A stretch of DNA of 64,000 nt from Verrucomicrobiota bacterium (lineage in GTDB: Bacteria > Verrucomicrobiota > Verrucomicrobiia > Limisphaerales > J093), in assembly GCA_029556615.1 (NCBI GenBank), contig JAKQDD010000113.1:124001-188000 (forward strand), in the 5' to 3' direction. The notes beneath the pieces are model-generated. The model was given only the letters and a program-made list of their open reading frames with translations, ran no database searches and was not told the DNA's origin. Numbering within the stretch: the first letter of the stretch is position 1; every line of letters begins with the position of its first letter. The translations under genes and the position numbers were made by a program. Positions 29,769-40,178 of this stretch are shown here, piece after piece.

Positions 29769-32615
29769 ATGCGGCACGAACAGCACCGGGGCGGATGGCG
29801 GGCAGCAACTCGCATGGCGGCCTGCCTCGGGCCGTTGGCGTTGGCGTGGTGGGCGTTGCTGGCGCTGGTCCCGGCCGGCGTGCGGCTGCAGGCTGCGGAG
29901 GTCAATGCCCCCATGGTTGTTTACGATCTCACCCCGCTGTTCTCCCTCGATCTCGCCGATGACGCCCAGCGACGCCGGTTCTGGGACGAGACGCATCTGG
30001 TGGTTTCCCTGCAGGGCCTGGTGAATCGGGAGAAACCGCGGCTGTTCCTGCGGTACCTGGCGGAGCCGGACGATTTCTGGTGGCGTGAAATGACGCGGCC
30101 GGGCGGCTGGCTCGAGGGCCGGGAGATCGTCCGGGTCACCGGAATCGCGGAACTGCTCGAGCGATTCCGCACGGACTATCGCGGCGCGGTGGTATGGGAC
30201 GAACGCGTGCCGGCCACGTCCAATCTGGCGTCAACGATCGCGGGCTGCGAGCGCCTGCTCTGCGTGCGTTATGACGAGCGGGAGGGGTCGCTGTATCAAC
30301 GGTGCGTCGGGGACGGACGGCCGCTCGAAGCGATGATCCGGCTCTTGGCAGCCGATGGCTCGCCGCTGTTCACCGGCCGCGGCCGAGTTCCCGGGACTGA
30401 CCTCGAATCGTCGGGAAGCGCCAAGAACGATGCCTATCGCTGGTTGATCCGGCATTATGTCGAAAGCGGAAAGGCCAATCCGCAACGCATGGGGTACTAC
30501 CTCGATGCCGACTGGTTTCGCAGCTGGAAGGCCGCCGCGCCCGAGAACCACACGCTGGTGAATCACGATTTCGTGATTGCCCATCGCGGGGTGCTGTTCG
30601 ACTTGAACGCCTGGGACGATGAGGCGTGCGTCGACGATCCCGGCCAGGCCCCGGGTACCGACCTGGCAACGCTGAAGCAACTCCTCCATGCGGCTTGCGA
30701 CCGGCTCCGCGGTTCGGGCATGATCCACGTCGCCGGGTTTGTCCCCTGGGCCTACAAATACACCACCCACGGCCGGGCGGGCGGCAAACACGCCGAGGTC
30801 CCGACCGAATGGCGGTTTGCCGAGGTGCTTTCCTGTTTCAATGCCTACCTGGACGCCGACGCCCTTGGCTTGGGCGCGATGGCGAACGCGTCGTTCTACC
30901 AGCACTACCCGCTGGCCGCACGCTATCCGCAGAATCCACGCCCCACCCGGGCGGACCTGGTCGCGCGCGGCCTGCTGGATGCCGCAGGCAAGGTCGTGCC
31001 CCGGGCGTACGTGGCGCATTACGTCGGCGACTATGATGCGGCAGCGTGGTTGTATCGGGAGCTGCCGCGGATGTGGCGCGACCCTGCCCGGGGGCGGACA
31101 CCGCTCTCGTGGGCGTTCAATCCGAACCTGAGCGAGCGGTTTCCCGTCGGGATGGCCTGGGCGCGCGCCCACCGGTCCACCAACGATTGGTTTGTGGCGG
31201 GCGATTCCGGGGCGGGCTACTTGAACCCGGGCTATGTGACCCCGCCGCGGCCGCACTCGGGATTGCCGTCCGGCCTCGAGACCTGGGAGCGCCATTGCCG
31301 TCGGTTCTATGAGCAATGGGACCTGACGATCACGGGGTTCATCATCGACGGCTATGCGCGGGGACTGTCACCGGAAGGCCTGGATGCCTACGCGCGATTC
31401 TCCCCGGACGGCATCGTGGCCCAGAAGATCCCCCCCCAGGGCATTCACCGGGGAATGCCGTTCCTGCGGATGGCGACGGATCTCTCCGGCAGTCCGGCTG
31501 AGGCGGCTTCGAGGATTGCGGAGCTGGGCCGGGGAACGCCCCCGCGGTTCGTGGTCTGCAGATCGATCCTGCAGACGCCGGCGTGGTACGCGGCGGTGGG
31601 CGCCGAACTCGAGACACTGGCCGGCGAATCGGTCCGCGTGGTGGACCTGTACACGCTGATGGACCTGGTGAAAATCCACGAGGCGAAACCAGACCCGCAA
31701 TCCGCGGCCAACGCGCCCGCGGATCCGGAAACCCGCGGGAGCAACGACCCGCACACCGGCCTGGAGCTGATTCGTGACCCCGGCTTTGCGCAGGGTTTCA
31801 CAGTCCTGGCGCCGGCGGCTCCGGCTCGCGAGGTCGGCCGGTGGAAGAGTAACCGGGACGAGAAACCGCCCGTCTGGCAGATTGCCCAATGGAACAGCCG
31901 ACAGGCGTTCAGCAGACCGCCCTCCGATGCGGGCTTTCCGGGAGCCTGGTCGAACGCCGCCAAGTGGCTCGCGGTCAAGGCTTCGGAGCCCGGCGGCATG
32001 GTTCTCACCCTCGGCGTGGATTCCCGGGCCGAGTATCAGGACGGTCTGCGGCGATCGGCTTCCGAACCCTGGGTGCATTTACTGGTTCAGCAGGAGATCG
32101 TCTCCGCGCCGTCGATGGCCGAGACGAAGGCGTTGCGGCTGCGATTCAAAACCCGGTTGGTCGAGGCGGAGACCTTCCGGCCGGAGGGATACTCGCCGGG
32201 GCTGCATGCCGCGCAATACCAACTCGTCTTGACCTTGAACAACACCCGGCCTTCCTCGGCGGGTCACGGGGATTTCCTCTGGTTTGTCGTGCCCCTGTAC
32301 GACGACCGCCACGCGGTGCCGCCAGAATATGTGGCACAGGACTTCGCCGTGAGCGCCGGAAAGCTCATTTATAATCCCGGTCTTGTGGCCTTCTCGAGCC
32401 AGCGGGTTCAACGGAGCCAGTGGCTCGAGGTGGACTGTGACGTGCGGCCCTTGCTCGAAAAAGCCCTCGAGACGGCCTGGGCCAAGGGTTACCTGCGAGG
32501 TTCAACAGAACGTGCCGACTACCGCGTTGCCAGCTTGAACCTCGGCTGGGAAGTGCCCGGACTCAACCGCGTCGCCATGGACCTGCGCGACCTCAGCCTG
32601 CGCGCCCTCCGGTAG
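29769..32615 (+). CDS. GxGYxYP-family putative glycoside hydrolase, secreted
   Basis: 948 aa. A signal peptide follows a basic start (MRHEQHRGGWRAATRMAACLGPLALAWWALLALVPAG). An N-terminal GxGYxY_N-type domain ('VYDLTPLFSLDLADD', 'VVSLQGLVNREKPRLFLRYL') leads to the central barrel-like domain with the naming motif, here GAGYLNPGYV (residues ~480), where the usual second Tyr is Asn. 'GFIIDGYARGLSPEGLDAYA' and 'GIVAQKIPPQGIHRGMPFLR' belong to the same domain. A C-terminal jelly-roll-like extension (~660-948) is present. The family is a predicted glycosidase of unknown specificity. It is probably co-transcribed with the Tat isomerase-like gene upstream. Confidence 0.85.
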   Translation: MRHEQHRGGWRAATRMAACLGPLALAWWALLALVPAGVRLQAAEVNAPMVVYDLTPLFSLDLADDAQRRRFWDETHLVVSLQGLVNREKPRLFLRYLAEPDDFWWREMTRPGGWLEGREIVRVTGIAELLERFRTDYRGAVVWDERVPATSNLASTIAGCERLLCVRYDEREGSLYQRCVGDGRPLEAMIRLLAADGSPLFTGRGRVPGTDLESSGSAKNDAYRWLIRHYVESGKANPQRMGYYLDADWFRSWKAAAPENHTLVNHDFVIAHRGVLFDLNAWDDEACVDDPGQAPGTDLATLKQLLHAACDRLRGSGMIHVAGFVPWAYKYTTHGRAGGKHAEVPTEWRFAEVLSCFNAYLDADALGLGAMANASFYQHYPLAARYPQNPRPTRADLVARGLLDAAGKVVPRAYVAHYVGDYDAAAWLYRELPRMWRDPARGRTPLSWAFNPNLSERFPVGMAWARAHRSTNDWFVAGDSGAGYLNPGYVTPPRPHSGLPSGLETWERHCRRFYEQWDLTITGFIIDGYARGLSPEGLDAYARFSPDGIVAQKIPPQGIHRGMPFLRMATDLSGSPAEAASRIAELGRGTPPRFVVCRSILQTPAWYAAVGAELETLAGESVRVVDLYTLMDLVKIHEAKPDPQSAANAPADPETRGSNDPHTGLELIRDPGFAQGFTVLAPAAPAREVGRWKSNRDEKPPVWQIAQWNSRQAFSRPPSDAGFPGAWSNAAKWLAVKASEPGGMVLTLGVDSRAEYQDGLRRSASEPWVHLLVQQEIVSAPSMAETKALRLRFKTRLVEAETFRPEGYSPGLHAAQYQLVLTLNNTRPSSAGHGDFLWFVVPLYDDRHAVPPEYVAQDFAVSAGKLIYNPGLVAFSSQRVQRSQWLEVDCDVRPLLEKALETAWAKGYLRGSTERADYRVASLNLGWEVPGLNRVAMDLRDLSLRALR

Positions 32616-32832: not shown

Positions 32833-34149
32833 TCATGGGGAGTACAGCAGATAGGCCTGTCGACGCTTCCGGAACTGCTCGAGGTCGGGCTCCCAGTTCG
32901 ACACGAGATAGCGCGCTGTCTTTCCCGCCTGGAGCGCCTTGCGCGTGGCATCCGTCCCGTTGACCTTGTCGAACATGGTGAAGGACTGCTTGCGCTTGAT
33001 AGCGTCGGCAAACAGATCGCGTCCGGCCAGTTTCTTGAACGCCTCGAGCGCGTAGAAGTTCAGCGCCACCAACGGCGCTTCAGCCGGCTTCGTCAACCGG
33101 AGTCGGACGCCCGACAGGCGTTTGCCCCGATAGAGACCCCGCGTGGGGGTGATGACCGCCGGCTCATACCGGAGACCCGGCAGCCCGTAGTCGTTCAGGA
33201 TTCGCGCCAGTCGCGCGCCATCGATCCAGGGTGCGGCCAGGTATTCGAACGGCCGATCCGTCCCCATTCCGATGCTTACGCCGCCGATTTCTCCCAACAG
33301 GCCCGTGGCCACCAGATGCAGCACCGTGGAGGCCCGGGGAACGTTCGGCGACGTCGCCACCCACGGCAATCCGGTGTCGTCCCACACCATCGACCGGCGC
33401 CAGCCGTGCATCGGCACCACCGTCAGCCGGCAGCGGTTGGTGATCCACCGCTCCCCCTCGATCATCCGGGCGAGCTCGCCACAGGTCATCCCGTACAGGT
33501 AAGGGATGTCCCATCGCCCGACAAACGACCGGAACTTCGGGTTCAGCATGGCGCCTTCGACGCGCTGGCCGCCGAGCGGGTTGGGCCGGTCGAGAACGAC
33601 GAACTCGACTCCTGCCTCGCCGCAGGCCTCCATGGCCAGCCCCATCGTGCTGATATACGTGTACGACCGGCAACCCGTGTCTTGGACGTCGTAGACCAGG
33701 ACGTCGATCCCCTTGAGCATCGCCCGCGTCGGCTTGCGCACCGGCCCGGGTCCGTACAACGAGTAGACGGGCAGCTTCGTCGTCGCATCCGTGCCGTTGG
33801 GAAACTCCCGGCCGGCCGGATGCTCCCCGCGCAGGCCGTGTTCGGGCGCGAACAACGCGACCAACCGGCAATCGGCCGCGCGCCGCAGCCGATCGATCGT
33901 CGAGCGGCCGTGGCGGTCAACGCCGGTGGCATTGGTCAGGAGGCCCACCCGCTTGCCTCGGAGCGGCCCGAACGTCCTGTCGGCCAACACCTCGCTGCCC
34001 AACCGGACCTCAGCTCCGCTTCCACACCACAGGAATGAGGCCGCCATCCATACTGCGGCCAGCGCCAGCACCCGGCTGTATCCCCCCAGCCCGGAAACCT
34101 CACAATAGAACCGGTGCAAGGATTTCCGGCCTTTCGAATTCTGGAACAT
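32833..34149 (-). CDS. namZ: NamZ-type exo-beta-N-acetylmuramidase (DUF1343)
   Basis: Full DUF1343 core: 'GKRVGLLTNATGVDRHGRST', 'LFAPEHGLRGEHPAG', 'VYDVQDTGCRSYTYISTMGL', 'DRPNPLGGQRVEG', 'GTDRPFEYLAAPWID' and the C-terminal 'ARYLVSNWEPDLEQFRKRRQ'. Known members remove terminal N-acetylmuramic acid from peptidoglycan fragments, so this may serve cell-wall recycling or scavenging. The N-terminal hydrophobic stretch (RVLALAAVWMAASFLWC) indicates export. The start is uncertain: ATG at 34149 gives a long basic leader, while GTG at 34071, preceded by GGGGGA, is an alternative. The 20-bp repeat lies inside the longer leader, which favours the shorter form. Confidence 0.9.
   Translation of the reverse strand: MFQNSKGRKSLHRFYCEVSGLGGYSRVLALAAVWMAASFLWCGSGAEVRLGSEVLADRTFGPLRGKRVGLLTNATGVDRHGRSTIDRLRRAADCRLVALFAPEHGLRGEHPAGREFPNGTDATTKLPVYSLYGPGPVRKPTRAMLKGIDVLVYDVQDTGCRSYTYISTMGLAMEACGEAGVEFVVLDRPNPLGGQRVEGAMLNPKFRSFVGRWDIPYLYGMTCGELARMIEGERWITNRCRLTVVPMHGWRRSMVWDDTGLPWVATSPNVPRASTVLHLVATGLLGEIGGVSIGMGTDRPFEYLAAPWIDGARLARILNDYGLPGLRYEPAVITPTRGLYRGKRLSGVRLRLTKPAEAPLVALNFYALEAFKKLAGRDLFADAIKRKQSFTMFDKVNGTDATRKALQAGKTARYLVSNWEPDLEQFRKRRQAYLLYSP
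34110..34129 (-). repeat. 20-bp exact repeat, copy 2
   Basis: ACCGGTGCAAGGATTTCCGG, the exact reverse complement of 27090-27109. It lies inside the proposed N-terminal extension of namZ. Confidence 0.6.
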
Positions 34150-34171
34150 CAGGTCAGCAGGCCGCGTCAGG

Positions 34172-36286
34172 TCACCAGGCCACGGCCCGATAGAAGCACC
34201 AGGGATTCTCCGGCAGGTCACGGGTGACCACCCGCTCGGACTCCCCCAGCGTCACGGGTTCGAGATCCTCCCACGCTTCGAAGGCTGTTGCCCCCTGGAT
34301 CCAGTAGGTGGCATTGACGGTGCCCGAGATCCGGAACGTGACCTGCCGATCCTGAACCGCAGGCTCGGTCAGCGCCGACGCCGCTGGCGTCGGGACCGCC
34401 GACAACGCCACGATCTCGAGAACCCCAAGGTACGTGAAGTGATAGCTGTTGTTGTTGGCCGGCCCCGGAGTGATCGCAATTCGCAGGCTGCCGCCCGGCG
34501 CGGGCGACAGGTTCGTCACGGTCACCGACAGGTCGACGTTGTTGGCGGCGTTCAAATCCACGACGGCGGTGCGCGCCCCCGTGACCGTGTATCGGGTCTG
34601 CCGGTTGTCGCTGGCGCCCAGGCGCGAGGCGTAAAACGTCAGGTTGTACGCCCTCGCCGGATCCAACCCGCGAAGCTCGAACACCGGCGTCGCATTCGCC
34701 AGCCCGCTGAACGTCTCGGTGTTGCCGAACAGCGAATCCCGGGTGGCGCTCGCCGGGTACTTCGACGCGCCGGTTGCTCCGTTCTCGTTGGCCCCGTTGA
34801 ACCGGGAGAGCATCTGCAGGCTGACGTCGGTGACCAGGCCGCCGGTCGTCACGAGTCCTTCGAGCCGGCCCGTGCTGCTCGATCCCACCGCCGGGGTGAC
34901 GTTGTTCCAGTGCCGGTCCGGATCCGAGGTCCCATGGGCCGTCGTCGCCGCCGCGGCTCCGAAGTCGAGCAGGATCCCCGAAGCCACCGCCGGCGCCCAG
35001 TCGATGCGCAGCACCCCGAGCGCAACCCGCCGGTCCGGATCGGTGTGCCGCGGACCCGGCGTCAGTGCCACGGTGATCTCACCCGCCGCGTCGGGCTCGA
35101 TCCCGGCCACGACGGCGGTGCTGTGGACGTTGCCCGAGACTTCGAGATCGGCGTAGGCCGTCCGCGCCCCGCGAACGGTGAACCGCGTCTCCCGGATGCC
35201 CGCCATTGCCGGGCTGGACGCGTAAAACGTCAGCGTGCAGGCAAGGCCCCGTGCCAGCCCCGAGAGCCGGAACAACGGCACCCTGCCGTCACCGCCACCC
35301 AGCCAGCCATCGCGGCTGGCGGTCGACGGAAAGGCGGTCGATTCGACGGCGCCTTCCTCGGTGAGATCCGTGAACGGCACGATCATCCGCAGCCCGATGC
35401 CGCTCGATCCGCCGTTGGTGCTTCCGAGGTCGGCCAGCCGCCCCCCCGGGGTGCCGGCGACCTCCGCCAGCACGTTGTTCCAGTGAGCCGTCTCGCCCTC
35501 CGCCCCTGCCAGGCTCGGATACGTGCTGCCTCCGAAGTCGAGCAGCACGGTCCGGGCCGGCTTGCGGATGGACGGCACAGGATGCTCGAGGGCCCATGCC
35601 TCGAGCACCGGCTCGACCAGCGACCGCCATAGCGCGTAGCCCGCGGCGTTCATGTGGAGCATGTCCGACCCGAATAGCTCCGGCCGCGGCTGTCCCGAGT
35701 CGTTCAGCATCGGCGTGAACACGTCCACGAACCGCAGCAACGGCCGATCCCGACAGTACTCCTGGACCATGGTGTTGAGCGTTCGCTGCGGTCCGAGGTA
35801 GGCAACCCGGCTCGGACTCGGTTTCACCGCCAGAAAGGCAATCCCCGTGCCCGGCAGATCCCGCTCGACGCGCCCCACGAAGTTCGTCCAGTCGGCGAAC
35901 ACAACGGCAGGGGTCTTGCCGGAAACCAGGTCGTTGTCCCCCTCGTAGTAGACAATCAGCGGCGGCCGATACGGCGTGACCACCCGATCATGGAAATACA
36001 GCACGTCGCTCGCCTGGGACCCGCCAAAACCCCGGTTCAAGACCAGGAATCCCGGGAAATCCCCCGCCAGGCTGCTCCACATCCGGATGCTCGAAGACCC
36101 GACAAACAGCACCGAATTCGGCGGCGGCGGACTCTGCCGGTCCGCCGCCTCGAAAGCCTGGATCTCAGCCTCGAAGCTGTTGGCCGCGAGCGGCCGCGTC
36201 GCCATCCAGGCGAACATGAGCAGCGATCCCCATCGCGCCCAACCCCGGCCGCACCGTGCGCTCCGCAGTGGTCTGAAGGCCCTCAT
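34172..36286 (-). CDS. SGNH/GDSL esterase fused to two 'FTYLGVL' modules
   Basis: 704 aa from the ATG at 36286, which overlaps the stop of the upstream gene (ATGA). A signal peptide (…GSLLMFAWMATRPLAA) precedes an SGNH hydrolase domain: block I VGSSSIRMW (Ser ~65), block II NRGFGGSQASD, block III YYEGDND (Asn ~118) and block V SDMLHMN (Asp ~208, His ~211). This is the GSSS subfamily often seen in carbohydrate esterases. Residues ~245-430 and ~440-625 are two copies of the ~195-aa module that occurs three times in the neighbour 36283..38385. The C-terminal domain ends WCFYRAVAW, like other exported proteins here. It probably deacylates a glycan; the modules may bind it or anchor the protein. 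Confidence 0.88.
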   Translation of the reverse strand: MRAFRPLRSARCGRGWARWGSLLMFAWMATRPLAANSFEAEIQAFEAADRQSPPPPNSVLFVGSSSIRMWSSLAGDFPGFLVLNRGFGGSQASDVLYFHDRVVTPYRPPLIVYYEGDNDLVSGKTPAVVFADWTNFVGRVERDLPGTGIAFLAVKPSPSRVAYLGPQRTLNTMVQEYCRDRPLLRFVDVFTPMLNDSGQPRPELFGSDMLHMNAAGYALWRSLVEPVLEAWALEHPVPSIRKPARTVLLDFGGSTYPSLAGAEGETAHWNNVLAEVAGTPGGRLADLGSTNGGSSGIGLRMIVPFTDLTEEGAVESTAFPSTASRDGWLGGGDGRVPLFRLSGLARGLACTLTFYASSPAMAGIRETRFTVRGARTAYADLEVSGNVHSTAVVAGIEPDAAGEITVALTPGPRHTDPDRRVALGVLRIDWAPAVASGILLDFGAAAATTAHGTSDPDRHWNNVTPAVGSSSTGRLEGLVTTGGLVTDVSLQMLSRFNGANENGATGASKYPASATRDSLFGNTETFSGLANATPVFELRGLDPARAYNLTFYASRLGASDNRQTRYTVTGARTAVVDLNAANNVDLSVTVTNLSPAPGGSLRIAITPGPANNNSYHFTYLGVLEIVALSAVPTPAASALTEPAVQDRQVTFRISGTVNATYWIQGATAFEAWEDLEPVTLGESERVVTRDLPENPWCFYRAVAW

Positions 36287-38385
36287 GGCGCAATCGCCCG
36301 GTACCAGGCCCCCGATTCCCCTCCGGCAACCTCGACCCGCTGGGAGGAAGAGTCCAGCCGAACGATCGCTGCTTCCGTCCACTCCGCGAAATCCCGCGTC
36401 TTCTGAACGACGTAGTTCTTCCCCGCCGTGCCCGTCAAGAGGAAGCTGAACATGCCGTTTGCGTACTGGGGTTCGGACAGTTCCGCCGGCTTTGCGGGCA
36501 CGGAGGCCGTCCAATCGAGCCGAAGCACGCCGAGGTAAGTGAAATGGTTTGCGTTGTTGTTGTTGGGACCTGGCGTCAGCGTGACGCGGATCTCCCCAGC
36601 CGCATCGGGAAGCATGCCCGTCACGGTGGCCGTGCCCGTCTCGTTGTTCGAAGCGTTCAAGTCTGCCACCGCTTCGGCCCCGCCGGTCACCGTGTACCGC
36701 GTCTCCCGCTGGTCGCTCGCCCCCAGGCGGGACGCGTAGAACGTGAGGTCGTAAGCCGTCCCGGCCGTCAAGCCGGCCAGCACAAACACCGGCGTGATAT
36801 TCTCGAGCCCGTTGAAGGACTCGACGTTCCCGAAAAGCGAGTCCCGCGTGGCGCTGGACGGATAGAGCGCCGACGTGGTCGTTCCCGCCTCATTGACGCC
36901 GTTGAACCGCGAGATCATCCGGAAAACCAACGGCGTCACCGTGCCGTCCGTCATCACGAGATCCGTCAACTCCCCCGCGTCCGTCATCCCTGCGGCGCTG
37001 ACGTTGTTCCAGTGGTTCTCCAAATCCCCGGCCCCGAACACCGTGGGCGTGGCGGCGGCGCCAAAATCAACCAGCACGGCGGGCGTGCGAACCGGGGTTG
37101 TGTCGACCTGCATCACGCCCAGGTACGTGAAGTGATTGCCATTGTTGTTGTTCGGCCCCGGCGAGAGCGCCACCGTGATCTCCCCCGCCGCATCGGGCCC
37201 GACCGCCGCCACCGTGACCGTGCCATCCACGTTGTTCGCCGTGTTCAAATCCCCGTACGCGCTCTCCGCCCCCGTCACCGTGTACCGGGTCTCCCGGTTG
37301 TCGCCGACGCCGGTCCGGGACCCGTAAAAGGTGAAGGTGTACTCGTAGGCCGGATCCAGCCCGGTCAGCTTGAACTGCGGAAAGACATTCGCCAGCCCGC
37401 TAAACGCCTCCGTGTTCCCGAACAATGAGTCCCGCGTGGCGCTCGAAGGGTAGACCGCCGACGTCGTCGCCCCCGCCGTGTTCGCCCCGTTGAACCGCGC
37501 GATCATCTGGAACCCAACCCCCGTCACCGCGCCGTTGGTGCTGACGAGACCCTCGACCGCGCCGGTGTCGCTGATCCCCACCGCGGTCACGATGTTGTTC
37601 CAGGCCGTCGGCGGCGGCGGTTCCTCGGTGTCGGTGGGCGTCCCCGACGCCCCGAAGTCCATCAACAGACTCGTCCCATCCGAGAGGTCCAACCGCAACA
37701 CGCCCAGGTAGGTGAAATGATTGGCGTTGTTGTTGTTCGGCCCCGGTGAGAGCGCCACCGTGATCTCCCCCGCCCCGTCCGGAGCCATCCCCTCGACGGT
37801 CGCCACCCCGCTCACGTTGTTGACGGCATCCAGGTCCACCATCGCTTCCGTCGCCCCAGTCACCGTGTACCGGGTCTCACGATTGTCCGTCACCCCCGCG
37901 CGCGACGCGAAGAAAACCAACTTGTAGGTCAGCTCCGTCGCCAGCCCCGTCAGCTTGAAGACCGGCGTGATGTTCTCCAGACCGCTCCACAATTCCGTGT
38001 TTCCATACAGCGAATCCCGCGTCGCCGAGGCCGGGTACAAGGCCGACCCGAGCGTCCCATTCTCATTCGCCCCGTTGAACCGGGAGACCATCTGGAAGCC
38101 AATCCCGGTCACGGTCCCGTCCATCAACACAAGGTCCGGAAGCCATCCGTAATCGCTCTGGCCAACAGACGTCGTGATGTTGTTCCAGTATCGGGCCGTC
38201 CCCACACCGGTCGAGGTCGTCTGCGTCTCCGGCGCGCCAAAGTCGAAGAGGAAACCATCGGCCCGTGCCGGTGCCCGTTCGAGCACTAGCAATCCGGCGG
38301 CAACCAGCGCCCAGCCAGCCCCCCGCATCACGCCAGCCGTAGTCTTGAGCAACAGACCCGATTCCTTGTTGGTTGGTTTAGTCAT
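36283..38385 (-). CDS. Secreted protein of three tandem ~197-residue modules
   Basis: 700 aa. After a signal peptide (…GWALVAAGLLVLERAPARA) three near-identical modules span about 44-240, 241-430 and 435-625. Each runs FDFG…WNNI, then RFNGANE, YPSSATRDSLFGNTE, DNRETRYTVTGA, DAAGEI and finally NNNNANHFTYLGVL. Spacing between the FTYLGVL ends is about 197 residues. A short C-terminal beta domain ends WYRAIAP. There is no catalytic motif. It is the first gene of a pair with the SGNH hydrolase, overlapping by four bases. It could be a scaffold, a glycan-binding protein or a surface layer component; the family has no name I know. Confidence 0.85.
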   Translation of the reverse strand: MTKPTNKESGLLLKTTAGVMRGAGWALVAAGLLVLERAPARADGFLFDFGAPETQTTSTGVGTARYWNNITTSVGQSDYGWLPDLVLMDGTVTGIGFQMVSRFNGANENGTLGSALYPASATRDSLYGNTELWSGLENITPVFKLTGLATELTYKLVFFASRAGVTDNRETRYTVTGATEAMVDLDAVNNVSGVATVEGMAPDGAGEITVALSPGPNNNNANHFTYLGVLRLDLSDGTSLLMDFGASGTPTDTEEPPPPTAWNNIVTAVGISDTGAVEGLVSTNGAVTGVGFQMIARFNGANTAGATTSAVYPSSATRDSLFGNTEAFSGLANVFPQFKLTGLDPAYEYTFTFYGSRTGVGDNRETRYTVTGAESAYGDLNTANNVDGTVTVAAVGPDAAGEITVALSPGPNNNNGNHFTYLGVMQVDTTPVRTPAVLVDFGAAATPTVFGAGDLENHWNNVSAAGMTDAGELTDLVMTDGTVTPLVFRMISRFNGVNEAGTTTSALYPSSATRDSLFGNVESFNGLENITPVFVLAGLTAGTAYDLTFYASRLGASDQRETRYTVTGGAEAVADLNASNNETGTATVTGMLPDAAGEIRVTLTPGPNNNNANHFTYLGVLRLDWTASVPAKPAELSEPQYANGMFSFLLTGTAGKNYVVQKTRDFAEWTEAAIVRLDSSSQRVEVAGGESGAWYRAIAP

Positions 38386-38591
38386 ACTTCAATGCGTGTC
38401 ATGCTACCGGGGCGCGCTCCAGGCCGTCAAGCCGGGCCGGATCCTCGCCCGACCAGTGCAGCGCGAACGTCTGCCAGCGGCTGCTCAAGCCCAGGACGTG
38501 GTACCGCAGTGGATCCGCGTTCAGCCTTCCTTTCGCATTGAAGAACTCGCGCCAGCAGGTAGCATGGGAAGCCCATGCCACCGACGCCCGC

Positions 38592-40178
38592 ATGAAGCGT
38601 CTCTTCACCGCCCTCCGCAGCCTCACCGTGATCGTGTGCTGGCCCCTCCTCGGGGCGATTCCGGCGCCCGAGGGATTGACCTGTCGTGTGGGAGACCAGT
38701 GCGTGGTGCTGCACTGGGACCGACTGCGCGAGCCCGACCTTGCCGGTTACAAGGTCTACCGCGCGGGCTCGAGCACCGGCCCCTGGACGCTCCTGACCCC
38801 CACCCTCCTGACGTTCCCCGCCCTGTGCGACTTCGAGGCCGTGAACGGCTGCACCAACGCTTACCGGATCACCGCCGTCACCCGCGCCGCCCAGGAAAGC
38901 GCTCCTTCCAAAACCCTCGAGGCCGCAGCCCGGCCGTTTGCGGATGACGATGCCTTCCTCGAGTTTGTGCAGCGGGCCAGCTTCGACTACTTCTGGCGCG
39001 AGGCCAATCCCACCAACGGCCTCATCCCGGACCGCAGCCCTTCGACCTCGCCCTGCAGCATCGCCGCCGTCGGCTTCGGACTGAGCGCGCTGTGCGTCGG
39101 CGTCGACCGCGGTTGGATCACGCGCGCCGAAGGCGCGGCGCGCGTCCAAACCACCCTGGCCACCTTCGGGAGCGGGCCCCAGGGCCCCGAGACCTCGGGT
39201 ACGATCGGCCACAAGGGTTGGTTCTATCACTTCCTGGACATGACCGCCGCCCGGCGCTACGTGAAGTTCAACACCGAACTCTCCTCGATCGACACCGCGC
39301 TGCTCCTGGCCGGCGTGCTTCACGCCCGGCAGTTCTTCGACCAGACGAATCCCGGCGAGGCGTCGCTCCGCGCCGCCGCCGACGCCATTCTCGGCCGGGT
39401 GGACTGGCGCTGGATGGCCCCCGACACCGATGTCCTCTCGATGGGTTGGCATCCGGACTCGGGTTTTCTCCCGGCCCGGTGGGTGGGCTACAACGAGGCC
39501 ATGCTGCTCTGCCTGCTCGCGCTCGGCGCGGCGTCGGATCCCCTGCCGCCCTCGGCCTGGGAACGCTGGACCGGGGGCTACACCTGGACCACGCACTACG
39601 GCCACGCTTTCGTCCCCTTCCCACCCTTGTTCGGACATCAGTACTCGCATTGCTGGGTCGACTTCAGGCGTGTGGCCGATCCGTTCATGACCCGCCACCG
39701 CAGCACGTACTTCGAGAATTCCCGCCGCGCCACCCTCGCTCAGCACGCCTATTGCACCGCCAATCCGCTCCGCCACCCGGGTTACTCGGGCGATCTCTGG
39801 GGACTGACCGCCTGCGACGGCCCCGCCGGTTATGCCGCCCGCGGCGCCCCGCCTGCGCTCCATGACGACGGCACCATCGCCCCGACCGCCGCCGGCGGTT
39901 CAATCGTCTTTGCCCCTGAACTTGCGATCCCAACCCTCCGCCGATTCTACCGCGAGTTCCGACGCAGCCTCTGGACGCCCTACGGCTTCCGCGATGCCTT
40001 CAACCTCGGCGCCGCGTGGTGGGGACCCGACACGCTGGGAATCGACCAGGGACCGTTCGTCCTCATGATCGAGAACCACCGCACCGGCCGCGTCTGGCAG
40101 CGCTTCATGCGCAGTCCGGAAATCCAGCGCGGCCTCGCGCGCGCCGGTTTCGTCGCCGTTCAGACAAGCGTCCCCTGA
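38592..40178 (+). CDS. Fibronectin-III-like domain plus GH144-type endo-glucanase (glycoamylase family)
   Basis: 528 aa from the ATG at 38592, giving a Sec signal (MKRLFTALRSLTVIVCWPLLGA); the ORF track adds 18 residues. A fibronectin-like domain (~25-110, 'VVLHWDRLREPDLAGYKVYR') precedes the alpha/alpha-barrel catalytic domain: 'FVQRASFDYFWREANPTNGL', 'GTIGHKGWFYHFLDM', 'ELSSIDTALLLAGVLHARQF', 'FGHQYSHCWVDFR' and 'LGIDQGPFVLMIENHRTG'. These are the hallmarks of PF10091/GH144, whose characterised members are endo-beta-1,2-glucanases. It should be periplasmic or secreted. It is divergent from the module-protein gene pair. Confidence 0.9.
   Translation: MKRLFTALRSLTVIVCWPLLGAIPAPEGLTCRVGDQCVVLHWDRLREPDLAGYKVYRAGSSTGPWTLLTPTLLTFPALCDFEAVNGCTNAYRITAVTRAAQESAPSKTLEAAARPFADDDAFLEFVQRASFDYFWREANPTNGLIPDRSPSTSPCSIAAVGFGLSALCVGVDRGWITRAEGAARVQTTLATFGSGPQGPETSGTIGHKGWFYHFLDMTAARRYVKFNTELSSIDTALLLAGVLHARQFFDQTNPGEASLRAAADAILGRVDWRWMAPDTDVLSMGWHPDSGFLPARWVGYNEAMLLCLLALGAASDPLPPSAWERWTGGYTWTTHYGHAFVPFPPLFGHQYSHCWVDFRRVADPFMTRHRSTYFENSRRATLAQHAYCTANPLRHPGYSGDLWGLTACDGPAGYAARGAPPALHDDGTIAPTAAGGSIVFAPELAIPTLRRFYREFRRSLWTPYGFRDAFNLGAAWWGPDTLGIDQGPFVLMIENHRTGRVWQRFMRSPEIQRGLARAGFVAVQTSVP

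Follow-up and report, generated by a model that had tools for sequence, protein, structure and literature searches.

What does a protein module of about 190 residues do if it stands both behind an esterase domain and, in an overlapping gene, in an array that carries no enzyme at all? This question was raised by two genes, here called A and B, that lie within a 64,000-nucleotide stretch of a Verrucomicrobiota genome, referred to below as the window.

Gene layout and five copies of one module

Gene A (36283..38385, reverse strand) encodes 700 residues with a likely signal peptide, modules A1, A2 and A3 and a C-terminal domain, and has no enzyme domain. Gene B (34172..36286, reverse strand) encodes 704 residues, in which a likely signal peptide is followed by an SGNH hydrolase, modules B1 and B2 and a C-terminal domain. 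The genes overlap by ATGA at 36283-36286; the initial annotation had given their coordinates, strand and overlap correctly. The putative signal peptides were recognized by reading the sequence: that of A (38260..38385, reverse strand) has a basic start, a hydrophobic run and APARA and then gives way to the first module, and that of B spans 36179..36286 on the same strand. Upstream of A, a search for sigma-70-like promoters found one where 0.1 would be expected, TTGACG-18-TAGCAT (38401..38430, reverse strand), a candidate identified by its match to the consensus.

Pairwise alignment placed the modules, all on the reverse strand, at 37687..38259 (A1), 37102..37677 (A2), 36511..37086 (A3), 34997..35554 (B1) and 34406..34978 (B2), with lengths of 186-192 residues. 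Each of the 10 pairs aligned end to end, with identities of 36-63% and scores of 114-226 bits, while 50 shuffles of one copy gave at most 21 bits. This confirmed the three copies in A and the two after the SGNH domain in B that had been counted before, although that count had overlooked the C-terminal domain of roughly 75 residues in both proteins. The reported constancy of copy spacing was borne out as well: from one DFG to the next it is 194 and then about 197 residues in A, and 191 residues in B. The list of conserved landmarks was corrected for B1, a divergent copy that lacks RFNGANE, FGNTE and NNNNxNHFTY.

No Pfam, NCBIfam or PHROG family matched the module, so its description as unnamed holds for these three libraries. 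Up to E 1, the Pfam scan of A and B returned neither Malectin (PF11721) nor AGA-YXIM_GBD (PF21254), the latter being absent from this whole genome and present in 1 of 58 relatives, and no CBM family was matched in either protein. Three weaker Pfam candidates were rejected: Glyco_hydro_36C (PF16874) scored 23 bits over 42 residues against a gathering score of 27, and fn3 and PrgH fell below threshold. Searching the sequences of solved structures in the PDB with module profiles likewise gave no confident match, and we set aside a filamin (E 1.3) and a phage nozzle protein (E 0.0044 over 62 residues).

The C-terminal domains of A (36286..36510, reverse strand, about 75 residues) and B (34175..34405, reverse strand, about 77 residues, all-beta in the full-length model) are 30% identical to each other, and no Pfam match above cut-off covers them. 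A profile of this domain matched 31 sites in this genome, counting A and B. Of the 20 stretches with the next-best matches (L106-L125), 19 have one whose end is 0-3 residues from the stop; the match is internal in L124, and in L120 the domain occurs twice in tandem with the second copy terminal. Secreted proteins of this organism probably use it generally as a C-terminal domain, and it is a candidate for a sorting or anchoring function.

Predicted folds of the module and the esterase

Copy A3 was folded with AlphaFold2 from an alignment of 26 rows drawn from the window and from six contigs titled Verrucomicrobia. The model is one jelly roll with a mean pLDDT of 96.3 and a pTM of 0.92, so that the structure prediction suggested earlier for a single copy yields one confident fold. 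Its top Foldseek hits were CBM35, CBM61, CBM6 and malectin-like ectodomains, with E about 1e-4. Structural realignment ranked the second malectin-like domain of ANXUR1/2 and FERONIA highest (Z 12-13; 13.1 to ANXUR1, 5y96), and also matched the C-terminal domain of Bacteroides uniformis beta-glucuronidase 2 (Z 12.4), the jelly roll of YxiM (2o14; Z 12.0) and human malectin (9ikp; Z 10.3, 3.0 Å over 144 residues). All of these exceed the Z of 7-8 at which, according to the alignment tool, the best hit usually lies when nothing clearly matches. The likeness to Malectin and malectin-like domains extends over the whole module at an rmsd of about 3 Å, but identity is only 9-13%, Pfam gives no match, and the module differs from them in its frequent SGNH partner. 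Comparison with 12 local Malectin sequences by hhalign gave an insignificant probability of 3.6-5.8%, so we dropped membership by sequence and kept the likeness of fold alone: by its predicted structure the module is a malectin-like beta-sandwich. Such a malectin-like or CBM-type fold, if the model is right, fits a role in glycan binding, as had been proposed from the sequence. Likeness between a model and known folds is nevertheless insufficient to show that the module binds sugar, and jelly rolls bind peptides and proteins too.

The SGNH/GDSL_2 catalytic domain of B (35560..36178, reverse strand; residues 38-236) matches PF13472 with E 2e-14 and 54.9 bits against a cut-off of 32.9. It carries the motifs GSS (63-65), NRGFGG (84-89), GDND (116-119) and DxxH (208-211), of which GSS, GDND and DxxH are kept in relatives, and by analogy with the SGNH superfamily Ser65 is probably the catalytic serine. 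The full-length model of B, built from an alignment of 16 rows, reached a pLDDT of 81 and a low pTM of 0.48, and was read at the level of single domains. In this model the nearest folds to the SGNH domain are sialic acid O-acetylesterases, led by the Phocaeicola vulgatus enzyme (7pzg, 6njc; Z 25.9 to 7pzg, 2.1 Å over 191 residues), which is only 20% identical and whose matched chains, of about 200 residues, have the size of the catalytic domain alone. OatA is also among the matches (Z 17.9).

The combination of a jelly roll with an SGNH esterase is already established. YxiM of Bacillus subtilis (SGNH/CE12-type), whose jelly-roll domain is described in extracts of a 2022 review (PMC9487903), unites both in one protein, but has one such domain before the enzyme, whereas B has two modules after it and three more on the companion A. 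RiCE17 of Roseburia intestinalis, which acts on mannan, likewise joins a GDSL_2 SGNH domain to a jelly-roll-type CBM; this is a CBM35, a different family, and tandem copies or an enzyme-free companion are not part of its description in those extracts (PMC9487903). B has the layout of the CBM class, with jelly-roll modules attached to an enzyme that we infer to be active on carbohydrate.

Relatives, partners and neighboring genes

By profile search, 20 of 320 genomes of the order contain the module, as do 33 of the 387 genomes sampled from the phylum. Beyond Verrucomicrobiota, the searches consisted of a pattern scan of genome contigs and a tblastn search of plasmids. The scan, which detects close relatives only, covered the genomes of 84,980 species and matched only contigs titled Verrucomicrobia or Verrucomicrobiales; the plasmid search turned up, on a Flammeovirgaceae (Bacteroidota) plasmid, a PKD-domain protein with a stretch of 30% identity, so that the family extends beyond Verrucomicrobiota.

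An SGNH domain was encoded in the same or a nearby gene at 23 of the 41 module loci read, with GDSL_2 and DUF4886 as the dominant families. Since this genome has only nine GDSL_2 genes, chance adjacency of module and esterase seems unlikely. DUF4886 (PF16227), another member of the SGNH superfamily, is absent from the window and replaces GDSL_2 beside modules in other genomes; as of 2022, the review extracts record no DUF4886 member of known function (PMC9487903). In one locus (L091) a module, a GDSL_2 protein (SGNH type 1) and a DUF4886 protein (SGNH type 2) with a module stand in a row. Around this trio (L091:1755-15001) we observed what resembles a sugar-utilization cluster, with an AraC-type regulator, an oxidoreductase, GLAA/B-like and beta-helix proteins and an MFS sugar transporter. 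Elsewhere, a SASA esterase domain precedes the module in one very long ORF, two large module proteins bear a GDSL domain, alpha/beta-hydrolase-type matches accompany the module in L085, L094 and L098, and its partner in L095, L096 and L097 is a metallophosphoesterase. In these last three loci the module starts proteins of about 940 residues with TSP3 repeats besides the metallophosphoesterase domain, a partner that is not of SGNH type. Two loci (L066, L067) encode single-module PEP-CTERM proteins with no esterase, and two others (L009, L086) have very large module-bearing ORFs.

In a tree of 75 modules, whose bootstrap support is unsettled, A1, A2 and A3 each group with the copy at the same position in G026, a genome of another family; for A3 the group is a three-row set with RYN. 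The four positions of cassettes with two modules in each gene (for example in G092, G009, G091 and G261) likewise form separate groups across genera. As judged from this tree, the copies are positional orthologs across genera, and the duplications would predate these splits between genera and families. The FGNTExFSGL loop, Arg120 and the NNNNxNHF loop are absent jointly from B1, and jointly again from module 1 of four-copy arrays (L005-L008). The tree keeps these two apart, but B1 is a long branch, and one shared loss is therefore possible. Because the three segments are lost together as a set, we propose that they form one functional site, the putative binding site of the module.

The genes around the cassette offer a lead to the substrate. 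Divergent from A lies a gene (38538..40178, forward strand) that is the only PF10091 gene in the genome; its product matches XcSGL (8xul) with E 1e-108. XcSGL has been assigned to GH144 (PMC12102758), and by this match to a characterized member the product is a GH144-like beta-1,2-glucanase. PF10091 is single-copy and cassette-adjacent in this genome and in G026, with differing orientations. Of the 14 genomes in the order that have a strong cassette, 12 also have a strong PF10091 match, versus 83 of the 306 others (Fisher's exact test, p = 1.4e-5, kinship ignored). In the control, GH16 was enriched more weakly (11 of 14 versus 142 of 306, p = 0.026), so cassette genomes are generally rich in such enzymes. 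GH144 as a universal neighbor was rejected, with adjacency in two loci only.

Downstream of B lies a NamZ exo-beta-N-acetylmuramidase homolog (32833..34221, reverse strand, start codon unsure; PF07075, PF20732), which we do not regard as a conserved partner, as it was found near no other locus compared. A few kilobases from the cassette, the window also holds a GxGYxYP putative glycoside hydrolase (29769-32615, forward strand). Near other cassettes (L051, L054, L083) we found a GH16 gene, a fucosidase with a BNR-repeat protein and a GH31 gene. Neighbors vary by locus and many are housekeeping genes; the substrate thus probably differs between lineages.

Proposed role of the cassette

We favor, with moderate confidence, a reading in which the cassette makes a secreted carbohydrate esterase, which malectin-like modules keep attached to its polymer, and the enzyme-free array as its partner. 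A and B would be made from one transcript and secreted. B, as an SGNH ester hydrolase, would deacylate a polysaccharide, probably by removing acetyl groups. The module would bind sugar through the three-loop site, formed in the A3 model by residues 84-98, Arg120 and residues 175-183. B2 would then tether the esterase to its polymer, and B1, having lost the loops, may serve merely as a spacer. A, an enzyme-free array whose three modules are all intact, would attach to the polymer that B acts on, presumably in a multivalent manner, and the shared C-terminal domain probably directs both proteins to one place, perhaps the cell surface. For this window the best substrate lead is an acylated beta-1,2-glucan, since the sole GH144-like gene adjoins the cassette both here and in G026.

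The module might instead bind protein, peptide or itself and build a surface layer or complex, with the esterase carried along and A as a structural scaffold. The enzyme-free array A and the very large module-bearing ORFs would suit such a role, and the closest fold is the ectodomain of plant ANXUR/FERONIA, a receptor family with known peptide ligands (6a5e in the fold list is a RALF23 complex). We nevertheless consider this unlikely, as esterases of several unrelated families are recurrently coupled to the module and the full-length model of B, with its pTM of 0.48, gives no sign of a rigid assembly. The initial annotation had offered, besides glycan binding, a role in assembly, with the module recruiting the enzyme to a scaffold. 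Of that reading, the unnamed module, its single fold of a glycan-binding type and an esterase link that recurs across the phylum have stood; assembly found no such footing, as scanning both proteins against Pfam up to E 1 gave neither a dockerin or cohesin nor any other domain of an assembly type. Nothing in that scan of the two sequences points to a cellulosome-like arrangement.

Two further readings keep the esterase at work on the cell's own polymers. B could edit the cell wall as a peptidoglycan O-acetyl esterase (or transferase) coupled to NamZ as the MurNAc trimmer: the NamZ homolog follows B on the same strand, no terminator-like site was found between 32600 and 34400, and OatA is in the fold list of the SGNH domain. 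This seems very unlikely to us, given that NamZ accompanies the cassette in none of the other loci compared and that the closest structural matches are to sialic acid esterases rather than to enzymes of peptidoglycan. Alternatively, B could make or edit an exported polysaccharide of its own cell rather than degrade a foreign one. AlgX shares both the domain types and their order with B, an SGNH domain and then a C-terminal CBM, as far as the review extracts describe it (PMC9487903), and several module loci lie outside sugar-degradation clusters; yet no polysaccharide-synthesis genes were recognized beside the window cassette, several loci have glycosidase neighbors, and we judge this reading, too, highly improbable.

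What distinguishes the cassette is that an unnamed module is arrayed in tandem not only on the esterase but also on a partner protein that has no enzyme, and that across Verrucomicrobiota it stays next to esterases of several unrelated families. Neither the module family nor the layout of paired arrays turned up in the libraries and literature searched; we found no work on a Verrucomicrobia SGNH hydrolase with a repeat domain, and none dealing with DUF4886 in this group. If the modules bind sugar, the family would be a new CBM and its pairing would give DUF4886 a testable function. The cassette may also indicate how ester groups leave bacterial beta-1,2-glucans. A bolder version of the tethered-esterase reading, which we regard as doubtful, is that the module founds a new carbohydrate-binding family for ester-decorated polysaccharides, in which arrays and module-bearing esterases cooperate and GDSL_2, DUF4886 and SASA enzymes interchange, and that in this genome beta-1,2-glucan is deacylated before the GH144-type glucanase cuts it.

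Two observations concern the wider set of loci. A 1456-residue ORF (L065:6875-11242) repeats a more distant jelly-roll-like unit, NDANxLxxDFxYGG...YLLTLFSVGW, which is perhaps a sister repeat family of the module. In G001 only a fragment of a module gene pair is left (L062), and its flanks, with GTPase and HflK/C-like ORFs, resemble those of the intact pair in G009 of the same genus (L049); from this likeness the cassette seems to be decaying in G001.
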